IMG/VR virus record: IMGVR_UViG_3300037294_000216
Coordinates: 1-21,805 of that record
Length of the DNA: 21,805 nt
Origin: a virus
Strand: one strand, 5' to 3'
The notes below the pieces were generated by a model. That model searched no databases. It worked only from the letters and a program-made list of their open reading frames with translations, and was not told where the DNA came from. The translations under genes were made by a program, and so were the position numbers. Positions within the stretch are counted from its first letter, which is position 1; each line of letters begins with the position of its first letter. Below are positions 8,872 through 21,607 of the stretch, piece after piece.

Positions 8872-9112
8872 TTTAAAAAAATCTTTAGCCTACGCATTTG
8901 AGAGAACAGATTTTGAACTTAGAAACCTAGACAAAATCATCGAAGAAATAAATAGCGAATTTAAAAACTTGCCAGAAAAAGAAATTATAAAAGCAATTAG
9001 AAACGGTGCTTTTGGAAAGTACGGAAGAACCTATAAACTTTCTACGCAAGAAGTATGTTTCTGGATTTACAGCTACCTTAAAGAAAAAGAATCTAAAAGA
9101 CTAAAATTATGA
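8810..9112 (+). CDS. Conserved phage protein of the replication operon (100 aa)
   Basis: 100 residues; the start lies 62 bases inside the preceding gene in another frame, a typical phage overlap. The C-terminal part AIRNGAFGKYGRTYKLSTQE followed by VCFWIYSYLKEKE is a pattern I recognise from small proteins next to replication genes in Bacteroidota phages. It is highly charged and probably all-helical. The stop overlaps the next start by four bases. Exact role unknown; a replisome accessory protein would fit. Confidence 0.6.
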   Translation: MNDLNKFQQCLGVMDLQNISDLKKSLAYAFERTDFELRNLDKIIEEINSEFKNLPEKEIIKAIRNGAFGKYGRTYKLSTQEVCFWIYSYLKEKESKRLKL

Positions 9113-9606
9113 GTTGGGTTATACAAAATTCTGTAAATCGCGTTTTTAACGCTTTTAAGCGCAATAAAAATAATATCTATAAAGAAGATATAGAGGCACT
9201 AAAACTAATCAATGAAGCCCTATTAGGACACGAAAAAACGATAGTCAATGATAATCTACTCTTTTCAAAATTACTTTCTGTACAATTACGGCAAAATATA
9301 ATCTATTTTAAGGATATTGGACTGGCTATAAAAGCAGTTCAAAGAGATTTGAGAAATACAGTAGAATTTAATATAAACTTGTTAACTTTGGATTTAAACA
9401 ATCACGAGTTAGAAAATTATTTTAAAAGCATTGGAATTGAAAAATACAATACTTTGGAGGAGTGGGAAAGTAACAAGCAAATAATTAGCGATAACCAGCA
9501 AGAAATTATCAAGAAAGTTTTAAAAAGTTGGAGCGTAGAAGATGTTGAAAAAAGTTTCTATAAGTCTGCAAATCAAATAATAAAAGATATAGAAAATTAC
9601 AAGTAA
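9109..9606 (+). CDS. Hypothetical protein, 165 aa
   Basis: 165 residues, probably mostly helical and highly charged (KEDIEALKLINEALLG, RQNIIYFKDIGLAIKAVQRDL, then SVEDVEKSFYKSANQIIKDIE). It begins in an ATGA overlap with the previous gene, so it belongs to the replication operon. I recognise no family or catalytic motif. It is the last phage gene before the cassette array. Confidence 0.6.
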   Translation: MSWVIQNSVNRVFNAFKRNKNNIYKEDIEALKLINEALLGHEKTIVNDNLLFSKLLSVQLRQNIIYFKDIGLAIKAVQRDLRNTVEFNINLLTLDLNNHELENYFKSIGIEKYNTLEEWESNKQIISDNQQEIIKKVLKSWSVEDVEKSFYKSANQIIKDIENYK

Positions 9607-9637
9607 ATGTTAAATTTTAAAAATAAATTAAAAAAAG

Positions 9638-9669
9638 TATTGTTTATTTAATTAAAGTATTTATATTTG
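9638..9669 (+). promoter_or_regulatory. Phage promoter upstream of the cassette array
   Basis: TATTGTTTA (9638-9646) and TATATTTG (9662-9669) with 19 bases between TTG and -7. TAAATGTTAA lies upstream at 9604-9613. It matches the other phage promoters, not the cassette sequence, and points into the array; with the array removed it would serve the ATPase gene at 12059. Confidence 0.85.
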
Positions 9670-9693
9670 TAGAAGCAATAAATAATTAATTAA

Positions 9694-9826
9694 TTCTAAC
9701 GGATTGCGTCTTTATTTCAGTTGCGAAGTTTGTACCCGAGATTTTTCCGCCACAACAAAACGTATTGCGATACGTGAACGTTATTAAACTACAAAACTCG
9801 CAATTGAATAAAACCGCGGTTATAGA
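9694..9826 (+). repeat. Leading attC-like site without its cassette gene
   Basis: R''-like TTCTAAC (9694-9700) and R'-like G|TTATAG (9819-9825) flank a foldable region. The stem pairs 9718-9734 (CAGTTGCGAAGTTTGTA) with 9790-9806 (TACAAAACTCGCAATTG), 14 of 17 plus one G-U. An inner CGTAT/ATACG hairpin lies at 9761-9774. No gene of the array precedes it; the upstream gene is phage. Confidence 0.7.
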
Positions 9827-9856
9827 CAGTTGTGGTTAATTAAAACAAAAAATGTT

Positions 9857-10255
9857 ATGGAAATAGATTTAAACAAATTATCAACAAAAGAAGTTTTTGA
9901 ACTTATTGATAAAGTAAATAATCATTTTACTTCAATAAAAGGATGGGGATTAATAAAAAACAATTTAATTGAAGATTTTGACGAAAGTTCTTATTTAGTT
10001 GAATCAGGATTACAAGTAGATGAAGAATTAATACAAGAGTTTTTTAACGAGTTTGAGTATAATGTTGAAGATGGATTCTATGAATTTAGATTTTTATTAT
10101 CATATTCATCTGCTCAAATTGGTAATTATCCACCTCCTAATATAGAATGTCAAGCATATTATGATTATTACGATTCTATATTTGATTTAAAAGTAAGTTT
10201 AGAGGATTATACAAAAGGAATTATTTATGAAGCAATTGCGGATAATCCGTTTTGA
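9857..10255 (+). CDS. Cassette gene 1, hypothetical protein (132 aa)
   Basis: ATG 9857 lies 37 bases after the cassette junction, in AAAATGTT-ATG context; a TTG 27 bases upstream falls in the recombination box and is unlikely. The 132-residue protein is very acidic with few basic residues, soluble, and has aromatic-rich segments (DGFYEFRFLL, YYDYYDSIFDLKV) between helices. I recognise no family. The stop TGA is 14 bases before the start of the R'' half of attC, so gene and site form one compact cassette. Acidic small cassette proteins are often DNA mimics or anti-defence factors in phages, but that is only a thought. Confidence 0.65.
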   Translation: MEIDLNKLSTKEVFELIDKVNNHFTSIKGWGLIKNNLIEDFDESSYLVESGLQVDEELIQEFFNEFEYNVEDGFYEFRFLLSYSSAQIGNYPPPNIECQAYYDYYDSIFDLKVSLEDYTKGIIYEAIADNPF

Positions 10256-10274
10256 AAACGTAAATAAAACAATT

Positions 10275-10352
10275 GTCTATAACAAGCGCGCGCTTTGCGC
10301 AGGCTTTGCTTTCGCAAAGCGTGAGTTAGGCGAAGTGCGCGCTTGTTAGGCG
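10275..10352 (+). repeat. attC site of cassette 1
   Basis: AACAAGCGCGC (10281-10291) pairs perfectly over 11 bp with GCGCGCTTGTT (10337-10347). Inside, CGCTTTGCG (10291-10299) pairs with CGCAAAGCG (10313-10321). The right core site GTTAGGC (10345-10351) fits GTTRRRY exactly, and the recombination point is 10345|10346. GC content is far above the surroundings. Confidence 0.88.
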
Positions 10353-10502
10353 ATGCGCTTGCGCATTTCGCCTAACGTCCGAGTGCTTGGCGAAGAAGCG
10401 GACTTATGAAAATTATATTTTCAGAAAACAATAAACGCAATTAGAATTACAAAACTTGAATTATAAACTGAACCCGCTTTTTTGCCAAACACTTGTTATG
10501 TG
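10346..10502 (+). repeat. Gene-less mini cassette with its attC site
   Basis: The cassette body is only about 30 bases, and it starts and ends with GTTAGGCGA (10345-10353) and TCGCCTAAC (10368-10376), so it folds on itself and contains no gene. GCCTAAC fits RYYYAAC exactly. The attC stem pairs 10383-10401 (GTGCTTGGCGAAGAAGCGG) with the CCGCTTTTTTGCCAAACAC region at 10474-10492, with one mismatch and two G-U. The right junction is 10495|10496, GTTATGTG. Confidence 0.78.
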
Positions 10503-10531
10503 ATGAACGGGTTTTAACAACTAAATTAATT

Positions 10532-10834
10532 ATGAAACAATTAGCATCTATTAGAACAAATTTGAGCTTTTCAGTTGAAACAGGAACTACTGAATTAAAA
10601 CCGACAATTGAAATAGTATTGTTGACTTATAAGCCTGAATATTCATTTAATGCAAAAAGTGAAATTCAGCAAAAAAGAGCATTAGACGAAACAAGATTGA
10701 TATTAAGTACTGAAGGACTAAATCAAATGATTGCAAACTTACAATTATCTCTTGCTCAACTTCAACAATATGAACAAATGGGCGTTGCTTTAAATAACGT
10801 TATCAAGGCAATGAAAGTTGATGAAAAACCGTAA
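10532..10834 (+). CDS. Cassette gene, hypothetical protein (100 aa)
   Basis: ATG 10532, 36 bases after the cassette junction, is chosen over a TTG at 10493 that spans the recombination site. The 100-residue protein has an N-terminal beta part (IRTNLSFSVETG, PTIEIVLLTYKP) and a C-terminal helical half with Gln and Leu repeats (LNQMIANLQLSLAQLQQYEQ). No membrane segment or known motif. The stop at 10832-10834 is nine bases before the R'' arm. Function unknown. Confidence 0.65.
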   Translation: MKQLASIRTNLSFSVETGTTELKPTIEIVLLTYKPEYSFNAKSEIQQKRALDETRLILSTEGLNQMIANLQLSLAQLQQYEQMGVALNNVIKAMKVDEKP

Positions 10835-10843
10835 ATATAGTTT

Positions 10844-10939
10844 ATCACATAACGGTTGCGTATATGAGAGGTACGCCACCGAGATTATGAACTGAAAAAA
10901 TATGTTTCTGCGTATCTCTTATATACGTTGTTACCACCA
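10844..10939 (+). repeat. attC site after the 100-aa cassette gene
   Basis: ATCACATAAC (10844-10853) is the complement of this cassette's start GTTATGTGAT (10495-10504). The stem pairs CGTATATGAGAGGTACGC (10859-10876) with GCGTATCTCTTATATACG (10910-10927), 18 positions with 16 Watson-Crick and two G-U. The junction is 10930|10931, followed by the next cassette TTACCACC. Confidence 0.88.
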
Positions 10940-10968
10940 GTACGGATTTTTAAAATAAAATTAATTAT

Positions 10969-11289
10969 ATGGAATTTTCATTTGAAGCAAAAGTAGTTCT
11001 AACATTAGAACACAAAAAAGGAATGGCAACATCAAAACACGTTGCAACTGATTTTAATCTTTATGTAATTGGAGAACTTGACAAAAAGCAATATTTAGAC
11101 AAAGAAGATTTGCCAACCAAAGCAGGTTCAAAAGTTTTATCTAATGTTCTTGTGCAAGGATTAGTAGGTAATATTCATTTAGCACACGAAAAAGGTTTTC
11201 GAGATAGTGCAGAACATTTACGATGGATTATTTCCGAATTAGAGCGAGGTTTTGTAACAGTTGCAAATGTAGAACAATCAAATTTTTAA
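10969..11289 (+). CDS. Cassette gene, conserved hypothetical protein (106 aa)
   Basis: First of two genes in one cassette, ATG 38 bases after the junction. Residues about 50-95 contain AGSKVLSNVLVQGLVGNIHL then RDSAEHLRWIISELERGFVTV, a pattern I have seen in small uncharacterised proteins of Bacteroidota and their phages. It is soluble and mostly helical with an N-terminal beta hairpin. The next gene follows after four bases, so the two probably act together. No enzymatic motif is visible. Confidence 0.65.
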   Translation: MEFSFEAKVVLTLEHKKGMATSKHVATDFNLYVIGELDKKQYLDKEDLPTKAGSKVLSNVLVQGLVGNIHLAHEKGFRDSAEHLRWIISELERGFVTVANVEQSNF

Positions 11290-11293
11290 TATT

Positions 11294-11551
11294 ATGAAAC
11301 CAAAAAAATTCAAAGAAGCAAATGTAACTTTTGCAAAAGACCAACCAGAATACCAACCATTACCAGCGTTTAGAAACGAAAGTCCACAAGGTGAAGTTAT
11401 AACGTGTTGGAATTTAACTTTTAGAGAAAGATTTAGAATTTTATTTAAAGGCGAAATTTGGCTTTCATTATTAACTTTTAACAATCCATTAACTCCAAGT
11501 TTTATAACCACAAAGAAGAGCGATGTACTTACTTCTGAAAACGATTCGTAG
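11294..11551 (+). CDS. Cassette gene, widespread small protein (85 aa)
   Basis: 85 residues. The stretch VTFAKDQPEYQPLPAFRN, then EVITCWNLTFRERFRILFKG, then IWLSLLTFNNPLTP is a pattern I recognise from small proteins of unknown function found in many phages and bacteria. Its conserved Trp, Glu-Arg and terminal Pro positions suggest a real fold. It lies four bases after the previous gene, and the TAG stop at 11549-11551 touches the R'' arm of the attC (from 11551). Two genes in one cassette suggest a functional pair, possibly with a toxin-antitoxin or interaction relation, but there is no direct evidence. Confidence 0.68.
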   Translation: MKPKKFKEANVTFAKDQPEYQPLPAFRNESPQGEVITCWNLTFRERFRILFKGEIWLSLLTFNNPLTPSFITTKKSDVLTSENDS

Positions 11552-11692
11552 TATTGGTGGTAACGGCGATGTATTGCTGAAGTTGCGAAAAAATATTACA
11601 GAATTCTAGATTAAAAACTGTCTTAACTGACAAAAAACAAATTATAAATTAAACACTTAACTCGCAATTTCTGCAATACAGTGTTATCAAAT
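11551..11692 (+). repeat. attC site after the two-gene cassette
   Basis: GTATTGGTGGTAAC (11551-11564) complements the start of this cassette, GTTACCACCAGTAC (10930-10943), in 13 of 14 positions plus one G-U. The stem pairs TGTATTGCTGAAGTTGCGA (11570-11588) with TCGCAATTTCTGCAATACA (11662-11680), with one G-U and one mismatch. The junction is 11683|11684 and the next cassette begins TTATCAAAT. Confidence 0.88.
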
Positions 11693-11701
11693 CGTTTTAA
11701 T

Positions 11702-11971
11702 ATGTACAAACCAATTAAATTACAAGGTTATAAAGATGCTTTTACTGTAAAGGCAAAAAATAGAAGATTTGCAATTATTAAAAAACAAGTTGATGACAAA
11801 AATAGAAATATGATTTACATAACTTCCTTGACTTCTGAAACAGGAAAAATGGATGTAGCAATTACAAAATTTTCAAATAATAACAAAGTGAAATATTCCT
11901 CAATAGTATTAAGTGATGAAGCAATTAGAGAACTTTACGCTTGTATGCACCACTATCTCAAAAATGTTTGA
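11702..11971 (+). CDS. Cassette gene, hypothetical protein (89 aa)
   Basis: ATG 11702 lies 18 bases after the junction; a GTG at 11681 would start inside the attC and is rejected. 89 residues, basic, with an N-terminal beta part (AFTVKAKNRRFAIIKKQV) that continues as antiparallel-looking strands (MIYITSLTSETGKMDVAITKF) and a C-terminal helix (DEAIRELYACMHHYLKN). The TGA stop (11969-11971) is inside the R'' box of the following attC. No known motif; a small nucleic-acid-binding protein is possible from charge and fold. Confidence 0.65.
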   Translation: MYKPIKLQGYKDAFTVKAKNRRFAIIKKQVDDKNRNMIYITSLTSETGKMDVAITKFSNNNKVKYSSIVLSDEAIRELYACMHHYLKNV

Positions 11972-11995
11972 TAACTTGTATATATACGAACCTAC
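11967..11995 (+). repeat. Remnant of the last attC site
   Basis: TTTGATAAC (11967-11975) is the complement of this cassette's start GTTATCAAA (11683-11691), so it is an R'' box. The following TTGTATATATACG should have a partner near a GTT core site, but none follows before the phage gene at 12059. The right half of the site is lost, marking the 3' edge of the array. Confidence 0.65.
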
Positions 11996-12058: not shown

Positions 12059-12892
12059 ATGGATTTAAACTTTGAAGATTTAGAAAAAACATTACAAGAA
12101 GAACAAACTTTTGACTTTGATAAAACATTTAATAGTTGCTTTGTAGATTTGTCAATCGAAATACCTAAACCAGAAATATTAATCTCAATAGGTAACCACG
12201 AATATAAAGGAAATTTTTATGATACAGCCGTATGTACCGCTGGAGAGTTTTCAGCAATAGTAGGGCAATCAAAAAGTAAAAAGAGTTTTTTAAAATCTGC
12301 CATTTGCGCTTCGTATATTGGTGGCAACACAAACAACCTATTCCCAAACATTAAAGGGCATAGAACAAAGGATTACGGTATTATCGACATAGACACGGAA
12401 CAAGGTAACTATTATGCGCAAAGGACATTTAGACGACCTATTGAAATGGTTGGAGCGAATTATCAAAACTACCATAGCTTTGCAACAAGGCACTTGAAAA
12501 CAAGTGAAAGATTAAAGTTTACAGATGAACTTTTAATAAACCAATCTAAGTTTTGTAAAGAAAAAGTAAAACTATTGTTTATCGATGGTGTCGCAGATTT
12601 AGTAGAAAATACAAATGATTTAGTAATGAGTAAAGAGGTTGCAGATTATTTGCTAAGATGGACTTCGCAATACAATATACATATTTGCACGGTAATTCAC
12701 AAAGCAAGCGGCACAAACAAACCTTTAGGGCATTTAGGTACATTTGTATTAAAGAAAGCAGAAACTGTTATTGATTTAGAGAAAGACGATTTAGGCCAAA
12801 TTAAAGTAACTAATCCTTATAGTCGTGGATACCAATTTGAGGAGTTTTCATTTGACGTAAACAAAAATGCATTACCTTATTTATTAGAATAA
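12059..12892 (+). CDS. RecA/RepA-like replication ATPase
   Basis: 277 residues of the AAA_25/RepA-like group. Walker A is the variant AIVGQSKSKKSF (67-77) with KKS instead of GKS/T. A second strand-acid motif, GIIDIDTEQGNY, is at 107-118, and Walker B is LLFIDG (172-177) followed by AD. A later GHLGTFVLKKAET (224-236) occupies the position of the sensor/arginine loop. Such proteins are hexameric ATPases that unwind DNA or load helicase at the phage fork. It is the first phage gene after the cassette array, and its usual promoter was probably the one at 9638. The modified Walker A is common in Bacteroidota phage members as far as I recall. Confidence 0.78.
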   Translation: MDLNFEDLEKTLQEEQTFDFDKTFNSCFVDLSIEIPKPEILISIGNHEYKGNFYDTAVCTAGEFSAIVGQSKSKKSFLKSAICASYIGGNTNNLFPNIKGHRTKDYGIIDIDTEQGNYYAQRTFRRPIEMVGANYQNYHSFATRHLKTSERLKFTDELLINQSKFCKEKVKLLFIDGVADLVENTNDLVMSKEVADYLLRWTSQYNIHICTVIHKASGTNKPLGHLGTFVLKKAETVIDLEKDDLGQIKVTNPYSRGYQFEEFSFDVNKNALPYLLE

Positions 12893-13461: not shown

Positions 13462-13659
13462 ATGATAAAAACTATTGAACAACGTTTAAATGTAGCTGAT
13501 GGTTACGCAATTGAATTTGCTGATTGGTTAAATAAAGAAAGGTTTTCGCCATATGGAAATCAATGGACAGATAATAAATTATCTAAAGACCCAAACGGCA
13601 ATTGGTTGTTTTATACTTCAAAACAGCTTTATGAAATTTTTAAAAAACAAATAAAATGA
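13462..13659 (+). CDS. Hypothetical protein, 65 aa
   Basis: 65 residues that begin two bases after the DUF1367 stop and end in an ATGA overlap with the methyltransferase start. The chain has a helical N-terminus (QRLNVADGYAIEFADWLNKE) and a Trp-rich middle (NQWTDNKLSKDPNGNWLFYT) ending with a basic helix. Similar small proteins of this look (acidic start, a WLF(Y)TSKQLYEIFKK end) occur among phage early genes. Function unknown. Confidence 0.6.
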   Translation: MIKTIEQRLNVADGYAIEFADWLNKERFSPYGNQWTDNKLSKDPNGNWLFYTSKQLYEIFKKQIK

Positions 13660-14264
13660 GTAATATTTCTATAACAAACGAAGATAATATGGAGTTAATG
13701 GCTCGATACCCAGATAATTATTTCGAATTGGCAATAGTTGATCCGCCTTATGGTATTGATATTAATTCTAGCGGAACACATTTTAAAGAAAAATACGATA
13801 TAAAAGAGTGGGATAAAAGCACACCAAGTACAGAATATTTTAATGAATTAAAAAGAGTTTCTAAAAATCAAATTGTATGGGGTGGAAATTATTTTTTAGA
13901 TAGATTAGGAAATTGTAAATGTTTTATAATTTGGGATAAAAAAATAGCTGAAGATATGAGTTTTGCAATGTGCGAAATGGCTTGGACTTCTTTTAAAAAT
14001 GGTGCTAAAATATATAAAAATACAGCTACACAAATAAACAGAATACACCCAACCCAAAAACCAATTAAACTTTACGAATGGTTATTAATGAGATACGCAA
14101 AAGAAGGCGATAAAATACTTGACACACATTTAGGTAGCGGAAGTATCGCACTAGCTTGTCATAATCTTAAATTTGATTTAACTGCTTGTGAATTAGATAA
14201 AGATTACTACGATGCAAGTTTAAAAAGACTACACAATCATCAATCACAACTAACAATGTTTTAA
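13656..14264 (+). CDS. DNA adenine-type methyltransferase, beta-class order
   Basis: 202 residues. DPPY (motif IV) is at 29-32 near the N-terminus. The HPTQKP signature is at 131-136, and the S-adenosylmethionine-binding motif I, DTHLGSGSI, at 156-163, followed by ACELDKDYYD (motif II) at 177-186. This N-terminal IV to C-terminal I order is that of beta-class N6-adenine/N4-cytosine methyltransferases. There is no restriction endonuclease gene beside it, so it is an orphan phage enzyme, probably protecting the phage genome from host restriction. The small size leaves little room for a separate target-recognition domain. Confidence 0.85.
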   Translation: MSNISITNEDNMELMARYPDNYFELAIVDPPYGIDINSSGTHFKEKYDIKEWDKSTPSTEYFNELKRVSKNQIVWGGNYFLDRLGNCKCFIIWDKKIAEDMSFAMCEMAWTSFKNGAKIYKNTATQINRIHPTQKPIKLYEWLLMRYAKEGDKILDTHLGSGSIALACHNLKFDLTACELDKDYYDASLKRLHNHQSQLTMF

Positions 14265-15561: not shown

Positions 15562-15720
15562 GTGCTAGCAGACGAAACAGAAATAGAAGTATACGCCTTT
15601 CACAAAACAAAACCAACTATAAAAAAGTTAATGACTATTAAAAAGTTTAAAGAGTTGCCAAAGTCAAAAGATTATATTTATCGAGCGTATCAAATTAATT
15701 TTAATAAAAGTATTGTTTAA
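15562..15720 (+). CDS. Orphan 52-codon frame after the HNH gene, possible gene remnant
   Basis: The frame opens with GTG at 15562 and ends at 15720, inside the -33 box of the next promoter. The peptide (ADETEIEVYAFHKTKPTIKK, then SKDYIYRAYQINF) looks like a genuine protein, but it has no ATG at the start and the first ATG (15631) would leave only 29 residues. It could be a GTG-started small gene or the 3' part of a gene displaced by the HNH endonuclease. I give it low confidence. Confidence 0.35.
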   Translation: MLADETEIEVYAFHKTKPTIKKLMTIKKFKELPKSKDYIYRAYQINFNKSIV

Positions 15721-15742
15721 TAGTAAAAGTGTTGTATCTTTG
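15711..15742 (+). promoter_or_regulatory. Promoter, TATTGTTTA / TATCTTTG
   Basis: TATTGTTTA (15711-15719) and TATCTTTG (15735-15742), with 19 bases between TTG and the -7 box, the same spacing as at 3868, 9638 and 21381. It should start the operon at 15764. Confidence 0.85.
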
Positions 15743-15763
15743 TAGAAACAAAAAACAAATATT

Positions 15764-21349: not shown

Positions 21350-21380
21350 CTAAAATAATTTAAAAGTTTTTTAAATAAAG

Positions 21381-21412
21381 TATTGTTTATTAAAATGTTG
21401 GTTGTATCTTTG
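21381..21412 (+). promoter_or_regulatory. Promoter, TATTGTTTA / TATCTTTG
   Basis: TATTGTTTA (21381-21389) and TATCTTTG (21405-21412), TTG to -7 spacing 19. An isolated copy of TATTGTTTA at 21295-21303 has no -7 box and is not counted. It drives the small gene at 21449. Confidence 0.85.
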
Positions 21413-21448
21413 TACAAGCAATAACGCTAAACCAAACAAATAGAAATT

Positions 21449-21607
21449 ATGACATCAGCAACTTACCAAAAAAGAATGAATATGTATTTAGGAGTTAAAA
21501 AATTTAGATTAGCATATAAATCATTTTTAAAAATGAATGAGTTAAGAATTTCAGAAGGAGTTAAATTTTTTACAATGCCTAACTTACAAGCTAAATTTGA
21601 AAAATAA
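21449..21607 (+). CDS. Small basic protein (52 aa)
   Basis: 52 residues, basic (MTSATYQKRMNMYLGVKKF, then AYKSFLKMNELRISEG), starting in GAAATT-ATG context about 30 bases after the promoter start. It has its own promoter and terminator, so it forms a single-gene unit. A 10-codon frame follows in a TAATG overlap (21607-21639) and is too short to judge. Function unknown; small basic proteins can be DNA or RNA binders. Confidence 0.55.
   Translation: MTSATYQKRMNMYLGVKKFRLAYKSFLKMNELRISEGVKFFTMPNLQAKFEK

Follow-up and report, generated by a model that had tools for sequence, protein, structure and literature searches.

Clusters of attC sites lacking integron-integrases (CALIN) have already been reported in phages by Qi et al. 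2023 (PMC9892861), including the Polaribacter phage P12002L. In the accessible part of that report, two phages are described with typical arrays and P12002L with a divergent one, and five of the six attC sites assayed recombine with attI1 through IntI1. For Bacteroidota as a whole, a published survey gives very few integrons (PMC9024848). Here, we analyze an integron-type block at positions 9694-11975 of the IMG/VR virus record IMGVR_UViG_3300037294_000216 (positions 1 to 21,805 of the record, called the window in what follows), which belongs to a phage of flavobacteria-like bacteria. A first-pass annotation, made from the sequence alone, had recognized in this block an integrase-less cassette array amid phage replication genes, which proved correct; the CALIN of Qi et al. 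weaken its further remark that such an array in a phage is unusual. We consider it likely that the block is a phage-borne integron-type array anchored at an attI-like site of the phage, with inverted genes, on which a host recombinase most likely acts in trans.

An integron-type cassette array in a phage replication locus

The block consists of five modules, read directly from the sequence at 9819-10283, 10345-10376, 10495-10853, 10930-11564, and 11683-11975. Five attC-like hairpins within 9694-11692 chain these modules together, and hairpins with long stems precede the first module and separate the others. Each module starts with GTT and ends with AAC, and its own end is exactly complementary to its own start over 10, 9, 10, 10, and 9 nucleotides before the final AAC in modules 1 to 5, respectively. 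The "9-14" complementary bases of the first-pass annotation thus correspond to 9-10 exact ones, and to longer stretches if one mismatch is tolerated. The chance of such complementarity beyond the GTT/AAC cores is about 4^-6 to 4^-7 per module. Together with the covariance-model matches below, the five sites and the complementarity of their modules show that the array had been recognized correctly, coordinates included.

To identify attC sites, we built a covariance model from 60 sites, all of bacterial chromosomes. Their consensus hairpin has 18 pairs, of which 14 show compensatory changes, and 93.9% of the cells concerned are paired in the alignment, against 72% after shuffling and 39-50% with the partner shifted along. 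This model matches three of the five window sites (E = 8e-19, 1e-11, and 4e-9), all on the + strand, and nothing else in the window, which is the kind of match on which the earlier attC assignment had been made to depend. It also has matches throughout related phages and none in two relatives with an empty site (L011 and L013; numbers with L denote our contigs and loci). The two sites that it misses, sites 2 and 4, are those with shorter loops. A scan with a two-arm profile found all five sites on the + strand and none on the - strand, and 400 kb of simulated sequence yielded no false match scoring at least 15; the training set of this profile took in part of the window, so the independent test is the covariance model. 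Folded as single-stranded DNA, the sites form long stems, with z scores relative to dinucleotide shuffles of -1.2, -5.1, -3.9, -3.0, and -2.2 for sites 1 to 5, site 1 being unremarkable by fold energy alone. The sites have the features that define attC, i.e., YTAAC...GTTRR boxes (R''...R'), an imperfect hairpin conserved in structure, and an unpaired spacer. There are five of them, where a CALIN is defined by at least two nearby attC sites, and no intI lies close by. The block is confirmed as an integron-type cassette array without integrase.

A hypervariable site and its unit of exchange

We compared the window with its close relatives, viral contigs whose AAA_25 protein is 95-97% identical. 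The identity is 92-96% (88% left of the array in some contigs) up to about 9669-9712, and resumes at about 11962-11972. The DNA between these conserved flanks differs in each of L005, L007, L008, and L009, which have other cassettes and other attC stems. In the distant relative L013 the site is empty and the homologue of the left-hand gene runs straight into the start of the AAA_25 gene; L011 looks alike. Since the flanks are near-identical, the cassettes between them differ, and distant relatives are empty, we conclude that, in one phage lineage, this locus is a hypervariable site for cassettes. The relatives do not have the window's genes in the window's order, in agreement with what the first-pass annotation expected of a cassette array.

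The places where relatives diverge point to the unit that is exchanged. L005 and L007 have their first gene in common and diverge immediately after its AAC. L006 and L009 have in common a gene and its upstream attC, and diverge after the AAC of the gene. The matches of window module 4 to its counterparts in L340, L342, and L343, and of module 5 to its counterpart in the Flavobacterium phage filifjonk9-1, end at TAAC(G). Based on these breakpoints, the unit is an attC with the gene to its right. On the + strand the cut in R'' is at AA|C, i.e., at G|TT on the - strand. The first-pass annotation had let the attC travel with the gene to its left. These canonical boundaries (gene plus downstream attC) are ruled out by the breakpoints of L005/L007, of L006/L009, and of module 4 in L340, L342, and L343. 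Across ten Flavobacterium phages, 46 of the 62 distinct alignment breakpoints lie within 12 bp of R'' or of the R'' of attI (5% expected, p = 6e-47, in phages that are kin and whose events are not all independent), while 4 are at R' and 12 elsewhere.

An attI-like site at the right end

The constant right flank of the window lineage starts with an attI-like site, which the first-pass annotation had overlooked. On the minus strand, the flank reads GGTTCGTATATATACAAG|TT, and the site itself (ggttcgtatatatacaag|tt, 11973-11992) is constant in L005-L009 and L018. In chromosomes of Flavobacteriaceae, sequences resembling CATATAAACAAG|TTGGCA are found 45-180 bp past the stop codon of a tyrosine recombinase, and in many of them attC cassettes come next. 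We built an attI profile from 28 such chromosomal sites. The window flank matches it with an empirical p of 3e-4, and the phage right flanks as a group far outscore other GTT positions (p = 9e-15). The right end of the array thus has a putative attI as judged by its sequence, and a cassette has been inserted beside the equivalent flank in a relative.

Cassette relocation between phage isolates

This insertion was found in lillamy9-1 and lillamy9-7, two nearly identical Flavobacterium phage isolates. The lillamy phages grow on Flavobacterium sp. LMO9, and all these phages were isolated from water sampled on a single day at a single site (PMC7077304). One cassette, identical over 444 of 444 bases, is in the interior of the array in lillamy9-1 and at its right end, at attI, in lillamy9-7. 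The interior of lillamy9-7 is cleanly closed (...CATAAC|GTTAAAGC), and the insertion at its right end (...TATAAC|GCTTTGC ... GTTATAAC|TACAATATT) has exact junctions. The only sequence shared at the junctions is the ATAAC core. In snork6-1, the relocated cassette is absent from both positions. The difference between the two isolates looks like the excision of a cassette and its re-insertion at attI, so that these relatives display the precise excision and attI insertion that characterize integrons. Because an identical cassette is held at different positions in lillamy9-1 and lillamy9-7, arrays of this kind are active.

Gene polarity and origin of the cargo

The direction of each attC was read from the sequence difference between its two arms. 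Cassette genes are inverted relative to attC in 181 of 184 cases in viral arrays and in none of 93 in Bacteroidota chromosomes (158:7 and 0:62, respectively, with an earlier script). Chromosomal cassette genes are read away from attI and towards their own attC, as in classical integrons, whereas phage cassette genes are read out of their own attC and towards attI. Given that the attI-like site lies at the right-hand end of the array and that the unit consists of an attC and its downstream gene, the genes are inverted relative to both attC and attI. The viral arrays therefore depart from integrons defined by genes that precede their attC and are read away from attI (181:3 inverted, against 0:93 in chromosomes). 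Furthermore, 71 of the 181 viral open reading frames (ORFs) begin in the hairpin region and cross R', and 46 end at the TAA of R'', which serves as their stop codon. The ORFs of the window, counted from ATG, begin after R'. Starts within the attC hairpin were noted at L008:8690-8760, L005:900-960, and L005:1399-1470, where different proteins gain an N-terminal leader encoded by attC; in L008, an apparent cytosine methyltransferase has such a leader.

When 297 viral cassette proteins were compared with 104 chromosomal ones, we found one weak match. Viral cassettes often match one another, above all when they encode methyltransferases. Window genes 1 and 4a have homologues in other viral contigs where attC sites are absent, which makes phage genes a more likely source of the cargo than host cassettes. 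Two origins had been put forward in the first-pass annotation. The one in which a host integron gathered the cassettes before they entered the phage is at odds with the polarity (181:3 against 0:93), the barely overlapping pools, and these attC-less homologues; the other, with the phage as a target in trans, is to be preferred. The cargo of isolated relatives includes many DNA methyltransferases and differs between near-identical phages, which suggests that anti-restriction and other accessory genes are being swapped.

A candidate host recombinase

We found no protein matching PF00589 in the window, in most of the related contigs, or in two complete phage genomes (MN812206 and MN812208); a clear PF00589 protein is encoded in two further array-bearing viral contigs. 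Among 301 genomes of Flavobacteriaceae, 176 have an integrase and 242 have attC-type sites (covariance model, E <= 0.001), and the two co-occur with an odds ratio of 9.4 (p = 4e-12). These 242 genomes are far more than published integron surveys report for the phylum. In about 24 of the 26 integrase loci that have an attC match, attC is on the 3' side of the integrase with the canonical polarity, and in F. sedimenticola the array extends up to the integrase gene. The integron integrase model TIGR02249 alone was discarded as a search tool because it is unspecific, with matches in all control genomes; we therefore relied on adjacency and co-occurrence.

The host enzymes linked to attI score 160-218 bits with TIGR02249, below its cut-off of 265. 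Those examined align to positions ~2-181 and 236-315 of the model and miss the intervening segment, which is the place of the IntI-specific additional domain. That domain is described, in the available part of the source, as a defining and necessary feature of IntI (PMC9668308, citing Messier and Roy). An intI with the IntI-specific domain beside attI is thus found neither on the phage nor among the host enzymes, which are below the cut-off. Because this segment is missing in the enzymes examined, the host system, as far as sequence comparison can tell, works like an integron yet fails one defining test. At one locus (L331, Flavobacterium sp. LMO8), a 580-residue integrase with a long N-terminal extension lies beside an attI-like site and an attC match; LMO8 and the host strains of the Baltic phages were isolated together.

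Proposed mechanism and alternative explanations

We propose that the phage operon is transcribed towards attI, probably from a promoter-like sequence at 9640-9669, and that captured genes have the same direction as the operon. The inversion is then to be expected, since only with inverted genes does a cassette match the direction of the phage transcript. A host integron-type tyrosine recombinase without the IntI-specific domain would act in trans on folded single-stranded attC during phage replication, cutting at AA|C of R'' to release units made of an attC and the following gene. Cassettes would be excised as circles or drawn from co-infecting phages, and new units would then enter at the attI-like site, which is the right-hand, promoter-distal end of the operon. 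What was seen directly are the sites, their covariation, the polarity, the hypervariability, the breakpoints, the one relocation in relatives, the resemblance to attI, and the lack of an integrase in two complete phage genomes. The action of a host recombinase in trans, which is likely, the single-stranded substrate, the expression of the cassettes, and their benefit are inferred. More broadly, Bacteroidota phages probably have their own pool of inverted-gene cassettes on a phage-borne attI, with starts often inside attC, which a widespread host recombinase without the IntI domain shuffles during infection, and through which phage lineages trade accessory genes.

Several points weigh against this proposal. 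Relocation is known from relatives and not from the window phage. The flanks of the Mumin and Lillamy phages are weak on the attI profile (p ~0.18 each), and their attI is defined by position and relocation, not by sequence. The kinship of the phages in the breakpoint count applies here as well, and the four breakpoints at R' mean that other exchange also occurs. The window is a 21.8 kb fragment, and an integrase may be encoded elsewhere in that phage. No host integrase is tied to the host of the window phage, the genomes of LMO6 and LMO9, on which the isolates grow, being outside the search. Finally, the candidate integrase is without a domain held necessary for IntI activity.

This last point leaves some room for another enzyme, either the XerC/XerD of the host or one provided by a helper element. 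Tyrosine recombinases are abundant in these genomes, and two other array-bearing viral contigs encode the PF00589 protein mentioned above. However, the attC sites beside the attI-linked enzyme are of the same family, the attI there is similar, and enzyme and attC co-occur, so that we regard a different recombinase as unlikely.

An ordinary CALIN, assembled in the canonical way by a chromosomal integron of the host and then taken up by the phage as a block, would account for the attC family, which is the same as in Flavobacteriaceae chromosomes, and has precedents in the canonical-layout phage CALIN that appear in the accessible part of Qi et al. (PMC9892861). It does not fit with a polarity opposite to that of chromosomal cassettes, the single weak protein match between the two pools, or a constant, attI-like right border, nor with cassettes that differ singly between near-identical phages. 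We find it very improbable. We give equally little credit to homologous recombination at attC-like repeats or phage mosaicism, with the sites as inactive relics. In its favor are the mosaicism of phages, the Erf-like annealing protein of the window phage, and the 16 breakpoints away from R'' (4 at R', 12 elsewhere), but the relocated cassette was joined at attI with the ATAAC core alone in common, 46 of 62 breakpoints are at R'', and the hairpin pairs are maintained by compensatory changes. A purely RNA-level role of the hairpins, as terminators or translation leaders with complementarity as a by-product, can practically be dismissed, since the 71 viral ORFs that begin in the hairpin region stand against an arm asymmetry that flips with phage or chromosome origin, module ends complementary to module starts, and exchange and relocation at R'', which speak against a sole RNA function.

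If the host-driven exchange we propose is true, phages hold active cassette docking sites run by a host enzyme and are not mere passive carriers of integron pieces, cassette genes are turned round to suit the phage operon, and phage lineages exchange anti-restriction and accessory genes via a shared, host-powered system. The mechanism is directly testable, since both isolates involved in the relocation come from one water sample and have a culturable host strain.

Genes and other features of the window

The sites and cassette genes of the array, its bordering genes, and the promoter-like sequence are on the + strand. The array is bordered on the left by a phage gene of 165 codons (9109-9606), whose homologue in L013 directly overlaps or abuts the AAA_25 gene, and on the right by an AAA_25-type gene, probably involved in replication (12059-12892). 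Upstream of the array, a pattern match at 9640-9669 (ttg-N19-tatatttg) resembles a promoter, which we take to be of the Bacteroidota TTG / TAnnTTTG type. A repeated intergenic sequence with such a promoter-like core precedes three gene groups of the window (9612-9691, 15692-15761, and 21357-21461). A second cassette site, further downstream, is present in close relatives (L006:3060-3690 and L008:12640-12790), where a copy of the promoter-like repeat is followed by an attC-like start; in L006, it shows another array end, with the flank TTGTATATATAAGAACC.

Site 1 (9694-9828; R'' ttctaac at 9694-9700, R' gttatagaca at 9819-9828; E = 1e-11, profile score 35.4) is followed by cassette gene 1 (132 codons, 9857-10255), with its attC-less homologues in viral contigs L345 and L346. 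Site 2 is a short GC-rich hairpin (10277-10353; profile score 20.8, fold z = -5.1). It adjoins module 10345-10376, a mini-module of about 30 bp with matching ends (gttaggcga...tcgcctaac) and no ORF, which may be an empty cassette or a deletion remnant next to this very stable hairpin. Site 3 (10370-10504) has the best covariance-model match (E = 8e-19, 82 bits) and precedes cassette gene 3 (100 codons, 10532-10834), with no match in Pfam, PHROGs, or PADLOC. Site 4, with a long stem and a short loop (10847-10939; profile score 22.9, fold z = -3.0), begins the unit of module 10930-11564, which has two ORFs: gene 4a (106 codons, 10969-11289), with homologues 59-92% identical in other viral contigs, in and out of arrays, and gene 4b (85 codons, 11294-11551). 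Site 5 (11558-11692; E = 4e-9) precedes cassette gene 5 (89 codons, 11702-11971), which is also a cassette in filifjonk9-1, where the homology ends at R''. Searches of Pfam, PHROGs, and PADLOC with the five cassette proteins gave nothing informative. An Rfam scan of the window (E up to 5) gave chance-level matches only, three of them on the GC-rich hairpins of the array, and a tRNA scan of the window found none. An N6_N4 DNA methyltransferase is encoded outside the array in the window (13656-14264); in L010 (9390-9946), it is immediately followed by the AAA_25 gene.

Comparison with known systems

A search of the open-access literature, subscription papers being outside it, gave no precedent for phage arrays anchored at attI in this manner, for phage-wide inverted polarity or inverted-polarity cassettes, for cassette relocation between phage isolates, for further Bacteroidota phage integrons, or for a widespread attC/attI/recombinase system in Flavobacteriaceae. 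Within that literature, phage CALIN are known, with a flavobacterial phage among the carriers and methyltransferases among the cargo, and the inverted polarity, the attI anchoring, and the relocation between isolates are without report. The arrays analyzed here have in common with those of Qi et al. the cassettes bounded by attC without integrase, the DNA methyltransferase cargo, and the G|TT cores. They differ by their hypervariable locus anchored at attI, their phage-wide inverted polarity, and the relocation between isolates, features not found in the accessible part of that report.

On the host side, the closest described family is NF040815 (recomb_XerA_Arch, "site-specific tyrosine recombinase/integron integrase"), with which the host recombinases examined score 183-229 bits. 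Most of them are under its cut-off of 220, and most have an extra N-terminal domain of ~70 residues or more. Integrons of the Treponema type have a reversed intI, which runs in the direction of the cassettes, and this is also the orientation of the integrase in the Flavobacteriaceae loci described here. With attC-type sites in 242 of 301 Flavobacteriaceae genomes, Bacteroidota would have a large set of integrons whose recombinase is without the domain used to define integron integrases. Compared with chromosomal integrons, the phage arrays have genes read towards attI instead of away from it and no integrase on the phage, and the related host integrase is without the IntI-specific domain, with its 3' end facing attI. 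They share with chromosomal integrons an attI at one end, attC sites with R''/R' hairpins and an asymmetric unpaired spacer, insertion at attI, and cassettes that mostly carry a single gene.

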